Below are positions 2,767 through 36,748 of a stretch of 43,749 bases of DNA, one piece after another (within the stretch, counting starts at the first letter, position 1; each line of letters starts with the position of its first letter). This DNA comes from Burkholderiales bacterium. GTDB taxonomy: Bacteria; Pseudomonadota; Gammaproteobacteria; Burkholderiales; SG8-41. Position numbers and translations under genes: made by a program. The stretch spans positions 1-43,749 of the forward strand of contig JAIETP010000043.1 in NCBI GenBank assembly GCA_019744975.1, read 5' to 3'. The notes under the pieces are model-generated. The model was not told where the DNA came from. It was given only the letters and a program-made list of their open reading frames with translations, and searched no databases.

Positions 2767-3297
2767 ATGAGTGAAGCACTCGGATTCATCGACCCCACCG
2801 CAGGCGGCGGCAAAAGCAGGATCGCGCTCGCCCCCCGACCGATGGACCTTGCCGGCAAGGTCGTCGGCCTGCTCGACAACACCAAGGAACAGGGCACACT
2901 GATCCTTGAAACCCTGGGCACCGCACTGCGCGAGCGTTACGGCGTGGCGCGCGTGGTCCTACGCAGCAAGGAACACTATTCCAAGCCGGCGACTGGCGCA
3001 TTGATTGATGACATGGCGAAAGAGGTGCAGGTGGCGATTGCCGCCGTTGGTGGGTGAGGGTCATGCACGTTGTGCAGTGTGCACGACACCATAGAATTTG
3101 AAAAACGCGGCATCCCGTCCACGGTCATCATCACGCAGGCATTCAGGAACGCGGCGGTATTCCAGTTCAAGGGCAAGGGGATGGATGGCCACCCGTATAT
3201 TGAAATGCCGCATCCGATCAGCAACCTGAAGCCGGATGAAATGAAAGAACTCACCCTGCGTTTTGTTGATCAGGTGGTCAAACAGATCACCGCCTGA
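2767..3297 (+). CDS. UGSC-family selenoprotein (in-frame TGA = Sec at 3055-3057)
   Basis: Translated conventionally, this gene stops at the TGA at 3055-3057. The frame continues past it without another stop to TGA 3295-3297, giving 176 residues with selenocysteine at residue 97. The readthrough sequence is GGUGSCTLCSVHD (U = Sec), the defining motif of the UGSC family, with Cys at 100 and 103. The Sec-x-x-Cys spacing resembles redox-active CxxC motifs. Before Sec the protein has KVVGLLDNTKEQG near residue 33; after it comes RGIPSTVIITQAF, which is alike in the other two UGSC proteins. A hairpin sits 11 nt after the TGA. The start has a good AGGAG site (2755-2759). The gene follows two DGLP genes in the same direction. 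A natural fusion at 33830-35569 indicates direct cooperation with DGLP proteins. The reaction and substrate are unknown. Automatic annotation would truncate or split this gene. Confidence 0.93.
3069..3087 (+). promoter_or_regulatory. bacterial SECIS-like hairpin for the UGSC gene at 2767
   Basis: Eight base pairs (GTTGTGCA with TGCACGAC, one G-U wobble) close a GTG loop. The stem begins 12 nt after the Sec TGA and the loop GU is 20-21 nt after it, within the range where SelB-binding loops of bacterial SECIS elements lie. An alternative longer stem (3060-3068 with 3079-3087, one A-C mismatch) is also possible. The other two Sec genes have hairpins at the same distance. Confidence 0.7.
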
Positions 3298-16442: not shown

Positions 16443-17924
16443 TCATCGGTAGCCCTGAGCGGTCAGGCGTGTATCCACGCATTTCTGCTGATTGGCCAAA
16501 CGGTCCGGGCCGGTGGGCACTTTCATGATGCAATCGATGTTATTGACCGTAACCCAGCAGCTGTGGATATCGCGCGGGTAAGAGGACTCGGAAGATGACC
16601 CCCATGGCAATCTGCGGAAACTGTGACCACATCCCTTGCCAAACTGCGCGACCGCATCTTGGGCTGAATGCGCGTACTGGTTGGTTGGCGTGTGCTGTCT
16701 TGTGGTCGCGCCGAGAGATGTCCAGTACATCGCTTCGGGCCAGCTAATACCGAAAGTGGGGTCTGATCCGTGTGGTCGAGCACCACTATGCCCGATCATG
16801 ATTTCTACCGTGGCATCGAAGTCTCTGGAGCGGTTAGGCCCTGCGCGACAGATGCCTTTCTCCTCGCATTTCACAGCGGCGGCAAGAATTGCTTCACGCG
16901 GCGTCGCATAGCCGCAGGCAGCGCCGTACCGTAAGGCGTTATCGCTGTTCGCGCGATACAACACTAGTGCGCCCCAGTTCGGCCCCCTGCATTCTGCGTG
17001 GATATTGACAATCAAATTCCTGTTGCGGAGGTGACTGTCTTTGTTTCGCGCAGCATTGAGACGCGTGAGCGCATCCTCCCGGGAGCGCGCCGACACCAGA
17101 AGAGGCGTCGACGAATAGCCGTCCGCGCGGTATTCGACGAGATAAAGATTCCCTGGTTCGATGTCTGACGGCCAGCCGCCGGTGGGTCGGCCGGCGGCGA
17201 TGTCCTTTGCCATCTGGTCGACTATGGAGGTAGCAACGCTTGGCGGCGGGGCTGCAGGTGCTGGACTTGCGGCTTGCGAGGGGGCTGGCCCACTGGGTGT
17301 GGCGCGGCTTCCCGCGTCGGCAAGCGACTGCCTGAGCCCGGCGCTTCCCGCCGATGGAGCAGGGCTGCCTCCACGCGATGCGATCAGTTGTGTGACTTCC
17401 GGTGAATTCAGCGCTCCGACTACTGCCTGCTCGAGTCTTTGTGCAGTTGTGGGGGATGTGCCGGCTGGCGCAAATATCCCGTAGGTGGACGGGTTAATCC
17501 CCGAGACCGCGATTGGCGTCAGGCTGTTGAGCGTGCCGCTCGTCACCGCCGGGCCCGCACCGGTTGTAGTGGAGTGAATCGGCACCATCAGCAACTGACC
17601 GCTGTCGGGACTCGCAGACCTGAACTCTTCGGCGGCGGTCAGGCCCCCGTTGCCGAATCGATTCAGAATCACTACTGGACGACCAAGCGAGTTGCCCAAC
17701 GAGATCGAAATACGGCGCGCAAGCGTATCGGCCGGCCCCCCCACTGCCGCTCCAACAGTGATAACGAAACGGTCACCCTGCGCCGCTGCGGGGCCGTGCG
17801 CCATCGACAGCATAAGTAGGGTGCGCCCTGCGGCTAAAAGCAGCCGCTTGAATTGTTGATGCCACGAGGTATGACTTGTGTTAATGCTCGGCTTCCGAGG
17901 CGTGGACGAAGCGATCAATTGCAT
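16443..17924 (-). CDS. chimeric exported protein: Bug-receptor-like N-terminal segment joined to a DUF4189-like domain
   Basis: A 493-residue protein in three parts. After a long N-terminus with a signal-like segment (RLLLAAGRTLLMLSMAHG...AAAQ), residues about 50-190 resemble the two ends of a Bug solute receptor: FVITVGAAVGGPADTLARRI, then VVILNRFGNGGL, GQLLMVPIHSTTTGAG, LTPIAVSGINPSTYGIFAPAG and a LNSPEVTQLIASRGG tail, with the middle of the receptor missing. A Pro/Ala/Ser-rich linker follows (about 195-240). The C-terminal half has two modules like DUF4189: WGALVLYRANSDNALRYGAA with PREAILAAAVKCEEKGIC, and a second AMYWTSLGATTRQ with AQDAVAQFGKGC. It ends with a Cys-rich tail. Its start overlaps the end of the MORN gene by 10 bases. 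The ligand-binding pocket is probably lost. The function is unknown. Confidence 0.72.
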   Translation of the reverse strand: MQLIASSTPRKPSINTSHTSWHQQFKRLLLAAGRTLLMLSMAHGPAAAQGDRFVITVGAAVGGPADTLARRISISLGNSLGRPVVILNRFGNGGLTAAEEFRSASPDSGQLLMVPIHSTTTGAGPAVTSGTLNSLTPIAVSGINPSTYGIFAPAGTSPTTAQRLEQAVVGALNSPEVTQLIASRGGSPAPSAGSAGLRQSLADAGSRATPSGPAPSQAASPAPAAPPPSVATSIVDQMAKDIAAGRPTGGWPSDIEPGNLYLVEYRADGYSSTPLLVSARSREDALTRLNAARNKDSHLRNRNLIVNIHAECRGPNWGALVLYRANSDNALRYGAACGYATPREAILAAAVKCEEKGICRAGPNRSRDFDATVEIMIGHSGARPHGSDPTFGISWPEAMYWTSLGATTRQHTPTNQYAHSAQDAVAQFGKGCGHSFRRLPWGSSSESSYPRDIHSCWVTVNNIDCIMKVPTGPDRLANQQKCVDTRLTAQGYR

Positions 17925-19402
17925 ATGTGTTTCATTTCGCGATTTGCGATGTGATTGCCCTTGCCGAAACCGTATTCGCTGCCAGATCTGCAGGCACCGT
18001 ATGCAATGGTGACTGAGCGTCCTCCTCCGGCGAGCGGATAGAAACGTCCGGAATCAATTGAAGTCGAAAGATTGGTGTAGCCAGGGTTGCAATCGCCCCC
18101 CACGTAACAGTAGACAACTACAATAGGAAACGCGCATCGGTTCAGAAAACCTTTGGACGTCGTGGTGCGAATTCCCAATGACCTAATCTCCGCTTCCGAG
18201 ATTGCCCTCACGCAATGGGTCGCGTCGTTATCAGGATTGCCGCCGGAAGGCGGCGGAGACTCTGCTGGAGACGCCTGCGGGCGCGCTGGTGACGACGACG
18301 TGACAGCGGCAGGCTGCGGGGAAGAGGAGGTGGCGGGAGATGATGGGGTCGTGGAAGAGCCGGTCTGCCGCCTGGCCTCTCGATGCTCTATTACTGCCCC
18401 GGCGACCGCCCCCAGTATGCCGAGAAACTCTCCTAGACCACCGCTACCACTGGCGGTTTCGGTGCTGGTGGTCGTTCTGGTTACGCTACCGTTACTGTAA
18501 GTTGCCACTACCCTTCCGAGTGCATCCCTTCCCTCGGCATTGAACGGCTTGCTGTTACGAAACTCGCCAGTCAAACGCTCGCCGGACTTTAAGCTCAATG
18601 TACCTTGTCCATGGAAGTGACCGTCAAGGAACGCGCCTTCATACTTATTGCCGCCGGGACTGGTGAGTGTTCCTTGTCCGCTCAATCTGCCTTTGGCGAA
18701 GTCGCCCTCATAGACATCTCCACTGGAAATAAAGGTCATGATGCCGCGCCCATGTGGCAGATGGGTGCTGAACTGCCCCTCGTAACGGTCGCCGTTCTCG
18801 TATCGCTGAATACCTTTTCCTTCCCGCAAAAAACTTCGCGTATCGCCGATTGAGCGATATCGCAAATTCGTGAACTCTCCTTTGCCGACCTGCCTGCCGT
18901 TGACGAACTCGGCGCGCGCCATGCTGCCGCTGCTGCTCGCATAAATTGCAGTACCGTTCCATCGCCCATCGACGATGGGTCCTTGGTACACCCAGGTAGT
19001 TCCCTTCTCCGTCGTGCCAGTCCGCAACTCCTTGTCGGACTGGTTCGCGTAGGCGGAACGCAGGGTTTGAGCGGCTCGGGTGTACGCGGGGTCGTTGTCC
19101 ACAGGCGGTGCAGCGGCGTCAAACACGTCGTTCATGTCGGGTTCTAGCTTGGCGAGCGAAAGATCGTTCAGGCGGTTCAGAAAAGTTTTCACCGAAGCGC
19201 AGACCTTGTGAATTCTCATCACCAGGGCGCAGCCGACGTGCGCGGTGCAGAAATTCACTTGGGTCCGGGTGGTTTCGTCGCGAAGCTCCTCGCAGTTCGC
19301 GAGTTCGGGATTGACCTGCGCCCGGGCGGGGCCGCCTGCGACGCCGACGACGATGCAAAAAAGCGCGATGATCCAACGGGATTGGCGTAATGATTGGCTC
19401 AC
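17915..19402 (-). CDS. exported MORN-repeat protein
   Basis: A 495-residue protein starting with GTG at 19402 behind a GGGGAA site. A signal peptide (WIIALFCIVVGVAGGPARA) is followed by a Cys-containing helical region (about 30-100). Then come MORN-type repeats (about 125-270), for example YEGQFSTHLPHGRGIMTF, YEGDFAKGRLSGQGTLTS and YEGAFLDGHFHGQGTLSL. Next is a Ser/Pro/Thr-rich linker (about 330-385) and a C-terminal Cys-rich module, CAFPIVVVYCYVGGDCNPGY and GACRSGSEYGFGKG. MORN repeats form extended beta-hairpin sheets and bind lipids or proteins. The downstream gene overlaps by 10 bases and is probably translationally coupled, so the two may act together in the periplasm. Confidence 0.82.
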   Translation of the reverse strand: MSQSLRQSRWIIALFCIVVGVAGGPARAQVNPELANCEELRDETTRTQVNFCTAHVGCALVMRIHKVCASVKTFLNRLNDLSLAKLEPDMNDVFDAAAPPVDNDPAYTRAAQTLRSAYANQSDKELRTGTTEKGTTWVYQGPIVDGRWNGTAIYASSSGSMARAEFVNGRQVGKGEFTNLRYRSIGDTRSFLREGKGIQRYENGDRYEGQFSTHLPHGRGIMTFISSGDVYEGDFAKGRLSGQGTLTSPGGNKYEGAFLDGHFHGQGTLSLKSGERLTGEFRNSKPFNAEGRDALGRVVATYSNGSVTRTTTSTETASGSGGLGEFLGILGAVAGAVIEHREARRQTGSSTTPSSPATSSSPQPAAVTSSSPARPQASPAESPPPSGGNPDNDATHCVRAISEAEIRSLGIRTTTSKGFLNRCAFPIVVVYCYVGGDCNPGYTNLSTSIDSGRFYPLAGGGRSVTIAYGACRSGSEYGFGKGNHIANREMKHICN

Positions 19403-31691: not shown

Positions 31692-32222
31692 TCAGCCCTG
31701 ACGCCGCATCAGCAACGGCACGATGGCATCGACCGCAATCCGCGCCTTTTCGCGCAGGATGGCATCGTCGTTGTTGGCGAGCGGATGGCCGATGACGGCA
31801 AACGGATAATCCTTCAGGCCGTTCACGCCGGCCACCGCCTTCGCGGTGGCGACGAAGCGATCCGTCATGATCGCGACCGCCGGAATGCCGAGCCGTTCCG
31901 CTTCGATGGCGTCGTGCAGACTGCACGACGAGCAGCTCCCTCAGTCGCCGGTCGCGGCGAGGATGGCATCCGCGCCGCGCATCTCCATCAGCATCGGCGG
32001 CGGCACCGGCCGCGAGGCGTCGGGTTTGCGGCGGCGGATACATTCGCGGATGCGGTATTCCCGGCGCAGGATCTCCTCGATGAAATCAAACAGGCGTTCG
32101 GTGCCGATTTTCGCGTTGTCGATCATGCCGACCACCGCGCCTTCGAGGGAGACCAGCGGCGGCGCCATGCGCAGTGCATCACCGTGCGCCGACTGCCGTG
32201 GGTCGAGGACTCTGAGGGTCAT
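31692..32222 (-). CDS. UGSC-family selenoprotein (in-frame TGA = Sec at 31941-31943)
   Basis: A second UGSC gene, 531 bases long exactly as at locus A. A conventional reading stops at TGA 31943-31941; the frame continues to TGA 31694-31692, giving 176 residues with selenocysteine at residue 94. The motif is ATGDUGSCSSCSLHD, with Cys97 and Cys100 giving the same U-x-x-C-x-x-C spacing as the paralogue. Shared flanks are AVVGMIDNAKIGTERL before and RLGIPAVAIMTDRF after. A hairpin starts 12 nt past the TGA (31911-31929). A GGAGA site precedes the ATG. It is the last gene of locus B, 57 bases after a DGLP gene. Similarity to the locus A protein outside the core is moderate, so these are old paralogues or separate acquisitions. 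It probably acts in the cytoplasm; the reaction is unknown. Confidence 0.93.
31911..31929 (-). promoter_or_regulatory. bacterial SECIS-like hairpin for the UGSC gene at 31692
   Basis: A perfect 8-bp stem (GTCGTGCA / TGCACGAC, extendable by one C-G pair) closes a GTC loop. The stem starts 12 nt after the Sec TGA and the loop GU is at +20/+21, the same as in the locus A gene. Confidence 0.75.
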
Positions 32223-32279: not shown

Positions 32280-33314
32280 TCAGACGCCTACCGGCACTGT
32301 GACAGCCAGCGATTTTTTGCCGTACCACGGCGGCAGGATGGCGCCAAAACCGCCTGCCGGCCCTCCGGCCGCAACCACCAGCAGGTCGTCGGGCGAGCGC
32401 AGCGCGCAGTACACCTTGTCCTCGTCCTTGCGTCCCGCCACCGCGGTCTTGCCGACCCCGCGCCATTCGCTTCGCTTCACCCGCGCCTTCTCAAACACGT
32501 AGTCGCGGATGTTCTGCCGGGTCCAGCGCGCGGCGGCAAAAATCTCGCGGTGCTGCTTCGGAATCACGAAGGCGTAATTGCCTTCCCAGATCGAGTAGGT
32601 AAGCATGTTGCTGCGCATCGCCGCCACATAGGTATCGAGAATTTCCTTCGGGTCATGCGTCCATTCGTTCATGATCTGGTGCGGAGACTCCACCTGCAGG
32701 GCCGTCACCGCGGACACTCCCGCCGGCACTCCGCGTTCGAGCGACAGCGGCGGCCACGGTGAATCCTCCTCATCTTCCGCCACGCAGAAAGTGAATTTGC
32801 CCGGATGGCCGAGGGTGGAGCGGTCGAGCTGGCCGGGAATACCACCCAACACATTGAGCAGGATCAGGCGGATGCTGCGACCAATGGTGGCATTGGCGCG
32901 GCTGGCGTTGGCGAGTACGTTGTGCGTGGCATTCATGCCGATCGCGAGCCGCACCGGTCCGTTGACGATGATGAAGGGCGCGCTGCCGCCCGTGCTTGCC
33001 GTGCTGCCGTGCAGTGCGTATTCGGGCTGGCACATCGCCTTGACCGTGGCCACCACCACCGGCAGGTATTCCGGCAGACAGCCGGCCATCACCGCGGCAA
33101 TGGCGACTTTTTCGGCGGTGATGCTGCGCCGGCGCACCGGCTCGATGCCGATCACCGCGGCGGCATCAAGCTCTGCCGCAGCAAGGAATCGCGCAACGGC
33201 GTCTTCGGTCGGCGGCACGATCGGCAGACCGTCAGTCCAGCCCTCGCGCTGGAACAGTTCGTTGGCCGCCATCGCATCGGCGACCTCGTGCACAGTACTC
33301 GCAAATTTGCTCAT
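32280..33314 (-). CDS. DGLP-motif protein of locus B; putative partner of UGSC selenoprotein
   Basis: A 344-residue member of the DGLP family. The motif reads GWTDGLPIVPPTEDAVARFL, followed by KVAIAAVMAGCLPEYLPVV, IIVNGPVRLAIGMN, SRANATIGRSIRLI, CVAEDEEDSPWPPL and a C-terminal AAGGPAGGFGAILPPW. It shares the backbone of the locus A pair but is clearly more distant; the central HGGNGCFGP segment is missing. No signal peptide is seen. It starts 9 bases after the CinA-like gene and is followed, 57 bases on, by the UGSC gene, repeating the DGLP-then-UGSC order of locus A. The function is inferred only as partner of the selenoprotein. Confidence 0.9.
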   Translation of the reverse strand: MSKFASTVHEVADAMAANELFQREGWTDGLPIVPPTEDAVARFLAAAELDAAAVIGIEPVRRRSITAEKVAIAAVMAGCLPEYLPVVVATVKAMCQPEYALHGSTASTGGSAPFIIVNGPVRLAIGMNATHNVLANASRANATIGRSIRLILLNVLGGIPGQLDRSTLGHPGKFTFCVAEDEEDSPWPPLSLERGVPAGVSAVTALQVESPHQIMNEWTHDPKEILDTYVAAMRSNMLTYSIWEGNYAFVIPKQHREIFAAARWTRQNIRDYVFEKARVKRSEWRGVGKTAVAGRKDEDKVYCALRSPDDLLVVAAGGPAGGFGAILPPWYGKKSLAVTVPVGV

Positions 33315-33323
33315 GGCCGTATT

Positions 33324-33833
33324 CTAAGGGCGCGCCAGTTCAGGGCCGGGCGCAGCCGCCACCACTTCCGCCAGCAGATCCAGCGCCGCCGCCGCGAAGG
33401 CGTACATATTGGCGACACGATCCGCGCTGCCGGTTTCCAGCGTACGCGAACATTCCACCAGTCCCGTCACTGCAAAGCAGGCATGTCCTGCCGGATAACC
33501 ATAACGGCTGCCGGTCGGGCCTGCGGCGCCGGTTTCGGCCAGCGCCCAGTCCGATCCCACCTTCTCGCGGGCACGACGCGCGGCGAGCAGCGCATAAGCT
33601 TCGGTGGCCGGTGTCAGGCCCTTCATGTCGGCGTCAGTGATGCCGAGCAGCGCGCGGCGGATTTCGTAGGTGTAGACCACCAGCCCGCCGCGGCAGCAGG
33701 CGGAAGCGCCAGGCACCGCGAGGAGTGCTGCATTGATCAGCCCGCCCGCCGCCGATTCGGCAACGGTGATGGTTTGTCTGCGCGCGATCAGCAGTTGGGT
33801 GACGCGTTCGGCATGCGGCAGCAGCGTATTCAT
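33324..33833 (-). CDS. CinA C-terminal-domain protein (PncC-like nicotinamide-nucleotide amidase fold)
   Basis: A 169-residue stand-alone CinA C-terminal domain. Canonical members deamidate nicotinamide mononucleotide (PncC). Landmarks are ITVAESAAGGLINAALLAVPG (usual form TAESCTGG with the conserved Ser kept), GGLVVYTYEIRRALLGI (usual VTYSNEAK..LLGV, where Lys is replaced by Arg), ALAETGAAGPTGSRYGYPAG (usual TGIAGPGG), and a C-terminal helix. The altered AESAAGG and EIRR positions suggest a changed or lost activity. The ATG overlaps the stop of the UGSC-DGLP fusion (ATGA), implying translational coupling, and the DGLP gene follows after 9 bases. It is therefore probably part of the selenoenzyme system rather than NAD salvage. 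Confidence 0.85.
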   Translation of the reverse strand: MNTLLPHAERVTQLLIARRQTITVAESAAGGLINAALLAVPGASACCRGGLVVYTYEIRRALLGITDADMKGLTPATEAYALLAARRAREKVGSDWALAETGAAGPTGSRYGYPAGHACFAVTGLVECSRTLETGSADRVANMYAFAAAALDLLAEVVAAAPGPELARP

Positions 33834-35569
33834 CCCTGGTTCTCGCGCAGAGTTTTCCACATTTTCGGTAAATGGATTTGCTTGCCCACCGGGAAGCCCA
33901 ACACGCCGTTGTGCGCAAACACATAAATGCTGTTGCGCCCCAGGTCGCCGGTGACGACAATCTGGAAATCCTCCGGCCGCCACACCAAAGGCACCAGACG
34001 CTCCGGATCGTCGGACTCGTGGAATATTTTCGGGATGCGCCCGGACTCGTGTTCCTCTTTCAGGTTCCAGTTCGGTTTCTGCGTCCAGTCGCGCAGCATG
34101 CGTTCGAACTCGCAGGCGGGCATGCGCGCATGGGCGAACAGCTGCTCCTTCAATTTCTGTTTCGACCAGCCGCCGCCGGCGATGGTCTCGGCGATGATCG
34201 GCGACAACAGCAGCAGCGGCCGCAGCGTGTCATAACCCTGCCCCACTGAAAACATGATCTGCCACGAATACTGCCGCACCACCGCATCGGCGATATAGGG
34301 CAATAACTCTTCCGGGGTTGCACCCGATACCGAGGAAATGTGGTTGCCGCCGGTATAACGGCCGATGGCCAGCGCATTGCTGCCCGCCGTAAAGCCGAAC
34401 TCGGTGCAATGTGGCGGCCAGCCGATTTTGGCGGTGACGTCTTCGTTCTCCGCCACCACCACGCGCCAGGTGTTGCCGAAGGTCGCCTTGTCATTTTTAT
34501 GCGGCAGAAAGCCCGCAACGTTACGCAGGTACAAGCGCCAGAAACGGCCGACCGTCGTATTCGCCTGAAAACCGTCACGCATCACGCCCTGGGTGTAATT
34601 GAAACCGAGCGCCTTGATGATCGGCCCGTTCAGCACGATCAGGTTTTCGCCGCCCGGCGTGTTGCCGCTGTGTTCGACGCCGTAATCATGATCGGCCATC
34701 GCCTCCACCGCGGCGACCAGCACGGGCATGTACTCCGGCCGGCAACCCGCCATCACACCGTTGACCGCGACGCTCCACACCGTCGCCGCACGGTTGTCGG
34801 GCAGCAACACACCCAGCACTTCATCGGCCTGGCGGTCGGTGTATTGGAGAAAAGCCTCAACCTTCGCCACCGTCGGCGGCACGATGGGCAGACCGTCCGA
34901 GAGTTCGTTCTTGATGAAATATTCGTTCACTGCCTCGAAGCTGCCGCTGCAGATGATGTCGCGCGCGCCCGGCTCGCCATCCACCGTCTTCGCCGACGGC
35001 ATTTTGAACAACGCGTTCAGCACGCCGTCCAGCGTCAATTCACGCACGTTCTGCTGCAGTACTTCCTTGCTCTGCAATCCGGGATGGCCGCGCACGGGAG
35101 CCACCGCGATATTCGGAAACCCCAGCCCCTGCGACGCCGCCCTGGCCAGTGTCATGAAACTCTCGCACACCAGCGTCGCCGACGGGATACCCGCCACTTC
35201 AGCCGCCACACTGGCCCGCAACACGGCGGGCGTGCAGCTGCCTCAACAACCCATCCCGGAGACGACGGCGTCGGCGCCAAGTTCGCGCAGTTTCTGCGGC
35301 AGGTTGGCCACCACATTGCGTTCATCACTGCCGTGGGTGTTGCCGAAGAGTTCCCAGTGCAGGAATTTCACGCCGGGATATTTTGCGCGCAGGCTTTGTT
35401 CCAGCTGTTCGAACACCTCGTTGCCGCGGAACACGTAGTCCCACACCCAGGCCACGGTTTTGCCGTCCAGCGTGTCCAGCCGTTTCGCCAGCGCTTGCAC
35501 TTTTGCCTGGCGCGGGCCGCGCGGCCACAACGCGGCGTACTCGACGTATTGCGCTTCCTTGTCCTTCAT
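33830..35569 (-). CDS. UGSC-DGLP fusion selenoprotein (in-frame TGA = Sec at 35243-35245)
   Basis: Read through the TGA at 35245-35243, this is one 579-residue protein with selenocysteine at residue 109; a conventional reading gives a 108-residue protein and a separate 464-residue frame that begins at a GTG just past the TGA. The N-terminal domain (about 1-195) is UGSC-type: KTVAWVWDYVFRGNEVFEQ, then GADAVVSGMGCUGSCTPAVL, with Cys108 directly before Sec and Cys112 after it, and AGIPSATLVCESF. The C-terminal domain (about 210-579) is DGLP-type: SDGLPIVPPT (from 224), VNGVMAGCRPEYMPVL, IVLNGP, ANTTVGRFWRLYL and VVAENED. A hairpin follows the TGA. An AGGGAA site precedes the ATG. It is first in the locus B operon and overlaps the CinA-like gene. 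The fusion shows that the two families cooperate physically. Confidence 0.92.
35214..35231 (-). promoter_or_regulatory. bacterial SECIS-like hairpin for the fusion selenoprotein
   Basis: GCCCGC / GCGGGC form a perfect 6-bp stem with a CGTGTT loop. The stem begins 12 nt after the Sec TGA, the same register as the hairpins of the other two UGSC genes, and the loop contains GU. Confidence 0.7.
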
Positions 35570-35748: not shown

Positions 35749-36732
35749 TTATTTCTGCTGCATGCCCACCGATTGCACCACCTTCGCCCAGGTGGCGATT
35801 TCGGTGTGGTACAGCTTTTCAAACTCCGCCTGGGTATTGCCGACGGCATCGAGTCCCTGGCCCTGCAGCTGCTTTTCAGTCGCCGGTTCGTTGACGACGC
35901 GGGAGACGGCTTCCTGGACTTTCACCGCGATGGCCTTGTCGGTTTTGCCGGGAAGAAACAGTGCATACCAGTTTTCAACGCCAAAACCCGGCACGCCCGA
36001 TTCGGCGATCGTCGGATACTCGGGCAGCGCCGGCGTGCGCTTGGGGCCAACCACCGCCAGCGCGCGCAATCGGCCCGTGGTGAAAAACGGCCGGGTCGAG
36101 ATCACGCTGGCGACGGTGAGGGCGATGCGTCCGCCAACCACGTCATTGATGCTCGGCGCTGTGCCCTTGTACGGCACATGGGTCATCTTCAGCCCAGTCA
36201 TCTGCGAAAACAGCTCAATGGTCAGATGCTGCGCCGAGCCCAGTCCCGACGACGAGAAAAACAACTCGTTCGGCTTGGCTTTGGCAAAGGCGATCAGTTC
36301 CTTGACGTTTTTCACCGGAATCGACGGATGCACCACCAGCACACCGGGCGACACCACGGCGAGCGTCACCGGCAGCAGATCCTTGCGCGGGTCGTACGAC
36401 AGTTTCATCAGGCTCGGCGTGATGGTGATCCCGGCCGAGGTCATCAGCATGGTGTAACCATCAGGTGGCGCCGTCGCCACGATTTCCGCGGCGATCGATC
36501 CACCGGCGCCGGGCCGGTTGTCCGCCACGATCGACTGGCCCCAGGACTCGCCCAGCTTCAAGGCGATGAAACGACCGGTGGTATCCACGCCGCCGCCCGG
36601 CGCCAGCGCGATGACCATGCGGACCGGTTTTGATGGATAGGCCGGGGTTTGCGCATGAACCGCGCCCGCCACAAAACCACCCGTCGTCAGAATCAGTAAG
36701 GCCCTGCAGGCACTTGCAGAAAATCCGTTCAT
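35749..36732 (-). CDS. Bug-family TTT periplasmic substrate-binding receptor
   Basis: A 327-residue Bug receptor with a signal peptide (ALLILTTGGFVAGAVHAQ). Landmarks are YPSKPVRMVIALAPGGGVDT, VADNRPGAGGSIAAEIVATA, LFFSSSGLGSAQHLTIELFS, HVPYKGTAPSINDVVGGRI and a C-terminal EFEKLYHTEIATWAKVVQSV. The ATG at 36732 is better spaced from GGAGGAG than the ATG one codon earlier. A strong terminator closes it before locus B begins, but its position directly upstream echoes locus A, where a Bug receptor precedes the DGLP genes. It may supply the substrate of the selenoenzyme. A 13-bp tandem repeat lies just upstream. Confidence 0.95.
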   Translation of the reverse strand: MNGFSASACRALLILTTGGFVAGAVHAQTPAYPSKPVRMVIALAPGGGVDTTGRFIALKLGESWGQSIVADNRPGAGGSIAAEIVATAPPDGYTMLMTSAGITITPSLMKLSYDPRKDLLPVTLAVVSPGVLVVHPSIPVKNVKELIAFAKAKPNELFFSSSGLGSAQHLTIELFSQMTGLKMTHVPYKGTAPSINDVVGGRIALTVASVISTRPFFTTGRLRALAVVGPKRTPALPEYPTIAESGVPGFGVENWYALFLPGKTDKAIAVKVQEAVSRVVNEPATEKQLQGQGLDAVGNTQAEFEKLYHTEIATWAKVVQSVGMQQK

Positions 36733-36748
36733 CATCTCCTCCAGCGTA

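Follow-up and report, generated by a model that had tools for sequence, protein, structure and literature searches.

A fused UGSC–DGLP selenoprotein and its likeness to the selenium subunits of glycine and proline reductase

The window analyzed here, the whole 43,749-nucleotide contig JAIETP010000043.1 of a Burkholderiales bacterium (assembly GCA_019744975.1), carries on its reverse strand, at 33833-35569, a gene for a fusion protein of 579 residues in which a UGSC domain is joined to a complete DGLP domain across a TGA codon that is almost certainly read as selenocysteine (Sec, U; residue 109). That the UGSC half resembles the Sec-containing subunit of these two reductases, for glycine and for proline, suggests a large putative family of selenium-dependent enzymes. 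With a probability of about 0.55, we read UGSC–DGLP as a GrdB-like, solute-specific reductase, UGSC being the Sec redox half and DGLP the substrate half. UGSC is counted among the families of largely uncharacterized function in a 2026 review (PMC13188914); the tie to the GrdB/PrdB Sec domain, the DGLP partner and a thioredoxin reductase (TrxR) paralogue linked to selB together supply a concrete enzyme hypothesis for it.

Frame and decoding of the fusion gene

The TGA lies at 35243-35245 (reverse strand), flanked by Cys108 and by Gly110-Ser111-Cys112, and the frame truly ends at a second TGA, 33832-33830. A standard code table splits the gene into two open reading frames (35243-35569 and 33830-35224), which favors the alternative that translation truly ends at the UGA, leaving two genes here that are either broken or distinct. 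Against this stands the match to the Pfam UGSC family (PF24696), which spans residues 14-179 (35033-35530, reverse strand) at 96.1 bits (gathering cut-off 25), so that the UGA falls inside the domain; the pieces before and after it score 32 and 29 bits alone, compared with 96 when joined. The DGLP domain occupies the remainder of the same frame, from about residue 206 to residue 579 (33833-34954, reverse strand), and includes D225, G226, C276, R342, N350, E374, W384 and G541 (fusion numbering), which are among the residues near-invariant in 174 DGLP domains. The single frame with PF24696 bridging the UGA bears out the first-pass annotation, which had proposed that the TGA joins the two domains.

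The Sec domain and motif are those of the UGSC family (PF24696, NF041046), whereas the score against the NCBIfam equivalog model NF041046 (UGSC_fam) is 47.2 bits, below its cut-off of 125, which places the window fusion on a diverged branch within the broader family. Structure prediction, proposed earlier as a check on the fusion, gave an AlphaFold2 model with a predicted local distance difference test score (pLDDT) of 96 and a predicted template-modeling score (pTM) of 0.94 over both domains, the high pTM suggesting that the two halves are held in a fixed arrangement. The UGSC half is predicted to be an alternating beta-alpha, Rossmann-like domain, with Sec109 placed between a strand (101-107) and a helix (112-125).

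The selenocysteine reading draws on family-wide hairpins resembling the selenocysteine insertion sequence (SECIS), on Cys replacements, and on the presence of selB and tRNA-Sec in the genome. Scanned with the pattern rule for bacterial SECIS elements, 159 of 161 distinct family UGA sites have a hairpin below -3 kcal/mol; the mean energy at the 161 sites is -10.2, compared with -3.9 in shuffled sequence. The p-value of this test overstates the case, since the sites share ancestry and the coding sequence around them is itself conserved. The hairpin of the window fusion itself (35214-35231, reverse strand; a 6-bp stem with a 6-nt loop, CGUGUU, that begins 17 nt past the UGA) beats shuffled sequence only modestly, being equalled in stability by 4 of 20 shuffles, a point in favor of a real stop; the hairpin evidence is weak for this gene alone and strong across the family. 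Cys occupies the Sec position in three of 117 fusions, including those of Novosphingobium flavum (locus L135), whose genome has selB, and Nocardioides sediminis (L158), whose genome has none. Above the cut-off, selB was found in 36 of 40 UGSC-bearing relatives compared with 4 of 21 UGSC-free ones (Fisher p 5e-8, uncorrected for kinship), and the window's own genome (G000) carries both selB (423.9 bits) and tRNA-Sec (75.9 bits, C3:251198-251288). The same frame across the UGA is kept in different phyla. Set against the domain match, the family-wide hairpins, the Cys forms, the decoding genes and this conservation, a real stop is hardly credible.

Fused and separate forms among relatives

A scan of genome contigs found at least 563 relatives, and the best 80 loci were analyzed. 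In these best 80 loci, 94 UGSC–DGLP fusions were called from at least nine phyla: 48 from Pseudomonadota, 21 from Chloroflexota, 11 from Actinomycetota, four from Bacillota, three from Acidobacteriota, two from Bacteroidota, one each from Nitrospinota, Rokuibacteriota and Thermodesulfobacteriota, and two unplaced, the phyla being those of record titles, some of which appear unreliable. Close relatives of the fusion, for example, stand in metagenome-assembled genome records titled Bordetella parapertussis (L096, L098, L099, L100 and others), a label that is probably wrong, the isolate names looking environmental. The search for further fusions, which had been suggested along with the idea that this one is natural, thus shows the fusion as a common form, and one already on record: a UGSC/Unknown_1 fusion, that is, UGSC with a conserved uncharacterized domain, was reported in 2008 (PMC2398784). 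Unknown_1 is probably DGLP, an identity that the available text of that paper does not state. The same paper gives 255 selenoproteins and 21 Cys forms for the UGSC-containing family (Zhang and Gladyshev 2008).

Sixty UGSC genes from the window's own genome and its relatives provide a measure of the partnership. Thirty are in-frame fusions with a linker of 22-33 residues, a 50% share that is biased, since the stretches behind the sample were partly selected for long frames; homologues are accordingly not always separated. Together with 26 separate genes, 56 of the 60 have a DGLP either fused or lying no more than 300 nt away on the same strand. The exceptions comprise one gene at a contig end, one with no DGLP within 8 kb, one with a DGLP 1.1 kb away, and one at which the fetched stretch ends. 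A rapidly built tree of 160 UGSC domains, 64 of whose 157 inner branches are weak, requires seven changes between the fused and the separate state, only two of which are forced by well-supported branches. At large UGSC is rare, occurring in four of 299 genomes sampled across the phylum, the window's own counted. We infer, as the first-pass annotation did by the logic of fusion, that a UGSC and DGLP pair acts as one enzyme.

The same annotation had pointed to two further places in the window at which the families are adjacent separate genes, and both were found, each UGSC with one UGA. On the forward strand, two DGLP genes (646-1665 and 1701-2729) precede a UGSC selenoprotein at about 2767-3294, with its UGA at 3055-3057 in the motif UGSCTLC, a form of UxxCxxC. 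On the reverse strand, a DGLP gene (32283-33290, the next DGLP downstream of the fusion, and one that was folded alone) precedes a UGSC selenoprotein at about 31695-32222, with its UGA at 31943-31941 in UGSCSSC, likewise UxxCxxC. The layout at 646-2729, with two similar DGLP genes in tandem ahead of one UGSC, recurs in L082, L089, L091 and L094. A DGLP gene elsewhere in the window's own genome (L025 5788-6813; G000 C3:129793) had no UGSC in the 12 kb fetched.

The motif around Sec differs between the two forms. Where the fusion has Cys108-Sec109-x-x-Cys112, the separate window proteins have GGUGSC and GDUGSC, and the earlier description of a C-U-x-x-C cluster lacking in those two proteins is to that extent correct. 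The cluster is not, however, unique to the window protein: among UGSC domains with a recognizable motif (five of the 94 called fusions had none), Cys directly precedes Sec in 47 of 117 fused and in none of 41 separate domains, so that C-U-x-x-C marks a subclass of fusions. At a contig end in the window's own genome (L023 5956-6327; G000 C27), a truncated UGSC gene has UGSS in place of UGSC.

Paralogues are numerous. The window's own genome (3.69 Mb, 99% complete) has nine UGSC genes above the cut-off, each with one UGA: two fusions, six with a DGLP no more than 163 nt away, and one at a contig end. In the relative G021, a genome 98% complete with 2% contamination, 58 matches to UGSC were obtained at E up to 0.001, of which 51 have exactly one TGA, three a further stop and four none, in a tally made by eye that includes a few fragments. 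Frames of at least 540 residues hold 33 of the 51; 14 of these were fetched, and DGLP was present in all 13 that were whole enough to judge. The 51 matches come near the sizes of the largest bacterial selenoproteomes, given as 57 and 63 genes in the 2026 review (PMC13188914), and in some bacteria much of the demand for selenium may come from the UGSC family.

Relation to GrdB and PrdB and the proposed enzyme

GrdB and PrdB work with a second, substrate subunit. In profile comparisons (hhalign), UGSC aligns with the C-terminal Sec domain of GrdB and PrdB (PF07355, TIGR04483), with the Sec columns in register: against a joint profile of nine GrdB and three PrdB rows, all from one bacterial class, separate UGSC domains scored 96.8% and fused ones 97.1%, and with the eight Sec-motif columns masked the values were 90.6% and 94.6%. 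Reversed profiles gave 15.0% (separate) and 1.8% (fused), 20 column shuffles gave at most 1.6%, and eight unrelated families at most 24.6%. Against GrdB or PrdB singly, three of the four comparisons gave 96.7, 95.6 and 96.5%. The GrdB-type motif UxxCxxC is found in 12 of the 41 separate UGSC domains. Judged from these alignments, UGSC and the Sec domain at the C terminus of GrdB and PrdB are remotely homologous.

The differences are equally plain. Where glycine and proline reductase have the pyruvoyl subunit GrdE or PrdA, UGSC has DGLP, and no GrdE/PrdA-like partner was detected; PF07355 has no match in the window fusion (E up to 0.001) or in the separate UGSC protein at 31695-32222 (E up to 0.01); and some UGSC hosts are, going by record titles, betaproteobacteria. 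Elsewhere in the window's own genome (G000 C3:211584-211799, L175), PF07355 (GRDB) matches a short segment at 43.5 bits. The UGSC–GrdB/PrdB alignment was not found in the accessible parts of the UGSC literature (PMC2398784, PMC13188914, PMC9312934), although earlier neighborhood work on UGSC may exist, and the passages available from PMC2398784 mention neither the adjacency rule for DGLP, nor this similarity, nor a selB-linked TrxR, nor a genome with 51 matches.

DGLP has no match in Pfam or NCBIfam. A separate DGLP was modeled with AlphaFold2 (pLDDT 92.4, pTM 0.93). The top six Foldseek rows for DGLP are cyclic amide hydrolases of the Toblerone fold, at E values of 5.5e-3 to 5e-2 and a template-modeling score of about 0.2. 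These rows favor a reading in which Sec serves as a nucleophile or as a metal or metalloid ligand in non-reductive chemistry (hydrolysis, transfer or detoxification) and DGLP is akin to ring-shaped amide hydrolases; we think this unlikely. A relation of DGLP to full-length GrdB (3.3%) was rejected, as were relations to GrdE, PrdA, GrdC and GrdD (at most 0.52%), the sets for these four having been picked out of the fetched sequence on the basis of length and of short motifs. That DGLP would have a substrate role is our guess.

The genomic surroundings supply a candidate electron donor. A TrxR-like flavoprotein gene occurs in 11 of the best 80 loci, directly after the fusion and a DGLP gene in L115, L121 and L160, and directly after the fusion in L100. 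Of the 40 genomes whose selB exceeds the cut-off, 20 were sampled; selB is followed by such a gene in 14 of the 16 that carry UGSC and in none of the four that do not (Fisher p 0.003, uncorrected for kinship). In G000, where selB and this gene together occupy C3:245922-248833 (L212 7923-10852), the TrxR-like gene (C3:247955-248833) begins with an ATG 14 nt past the selB stop; the protein scores 225 bits against TIGR01292, below the cut-off of 343, and is therefore a divergent paralogue. Glycine reductase works with thioredoxin (PMC13188914).

Solute-binding proteins are also frequent neighbors. Upstream of the window fusion lies a TctC-type gene (35749-36735, reverse strand; Pfam). Across 46 UGSC loci totalling 383 kb there are 76 TctC genes, spread over 36 loci, a density of 0.20 per kb; in 14 selB loci it is 0.057 per kb (11 in 194 kb), so that UGSC loci are 3.5 times denser, 13 of the 14 control loci being from the same family. 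Among the best 80 loci, TctC is found in 25, of which 22 are Pseudomonadota, and SBP_bac_5-type binding proteins in 11, of which ten are Chloroflexota. Genes in the locus maps were labeled by eye, and representatives of nine clusters agreed with Pfam. In view of the selB control, the idea that an adjacent TctC gene proves the substrate to be a carboxylate was weakened.

A linked TrxR-like gene would also suit a thioredoxin-like thiol-disulfide or peroxide-detoxifying selenoprotein with DGLP as an accessory, and the 2026 review lists UGSC beside peroxiredoxin-, thioredoxin- and glutaredoxin-like proteins, its function largely uncharacterized (PMC13188914). The modeled UGSC half, however, is predicted to be Rossmann-like rather than a thioredoxin fold; most of the VIA-align rows that cover residues 32-198 are proteins of Rossmann-like type; and tens of paralogues in one genome, with adjoining solute-binding proteins, do not resemble a general antioxidant defense. 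We regard this alternative as quite improbable.

The reductase reading draws on the similarity to GrdB and PrdB, the partnership of UGSC with DGLP, the linked TrxR, the solute-binding neighbors and the Sec machinery. From sequence we infer an activity, a class of substrates and an electron route as follows. The fusion gene would yield a single selenoenzyme whose two domains cooperate. In UGSC, the selenolate, located where a strand of the Rossmann-like domain ends, would attack a substrate that DGLP holds or that the two domains share, and cleave a bond in it reductively; a selenenylsulfide would then form with Cys112 (or with Cys108 in the C-U-x-x-C subclass) and be re-reduced by the NAD(P)H flavoprotein paralogous to thioredoxin reductase. 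DGLP would stand in for the pyruvoyl substrate subunit GrdE or PrdA with no detectable relation to either, and each paralogue would act on its own imported solutes, which would resemble carboxylates or peptides. Whether this amounts to a new class of solute-specific reductases, combining a GrdB-type Sec domain, an unrelated non-pyruvoyl substrate domain, a dedicated TrxR paralogue encoded at selB and, in some bacteria, some 50 paralogues, one per imported substrate, is a more tentative proposition, to which we give somewhat less than even odds.

A number of findings weigh against the reductase reading. The similarity to GrdB spans only about 70-106 columns, and separate UGSC domains score only 72.6% against PrdB alone (a profile of three rows). 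The GrdB motif UxxCxxC (PMC13188914) occurs in none of 117 fused UGSC domains, the window fusion included. No GrdB structure was found for comparison, the PDB not having been queried with GrdB itself. DGLP has no PDB match by sequence and no significant fold match, and its candidacy as a relative of GrdE or PrdA was rejected (hhalign 0.11% and 0.09%, with 98.8% for GrdE against PrdA as the positive control). Of seven genomes with UGA-bearing fusions, three gave no selB above the cut-off, tRNA-Sec being present in two of these three; G261 has selB and no tRNA-Sec above the cut-off. All but one of the 14 genomes with a TrxR-like gene at selB come from one bacterial family, and two of the 16 UGSC-bearing genomes (G038 and G048) lack such a gene there. 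TctC genes, finally, are common in these genomes anyway, seven of the 14 control selB loci carrying one.

Other features of the window

Directly downstream of the fusion lies a CinA-like gene (PF02464; 33324-33833, reverse strand), whose own ATG overlaps the stop codon of the fusion. The arrangement, with such a gene immediately behind the fusion, is shared by two close relatives (L097 and L109, two of the 80 loci). In a genome of the same genus a CinA-like gene (L062 2481-2972) lies just upstream of a DGLP–UGSC pair, the order seen in the window between the fusion and the separate pair. Away from these genes, a frame of 493 residues at 16443-17924 matches TctC only at residues 69-117 and adjoins a MORN-repeat frame at 17915-19402.
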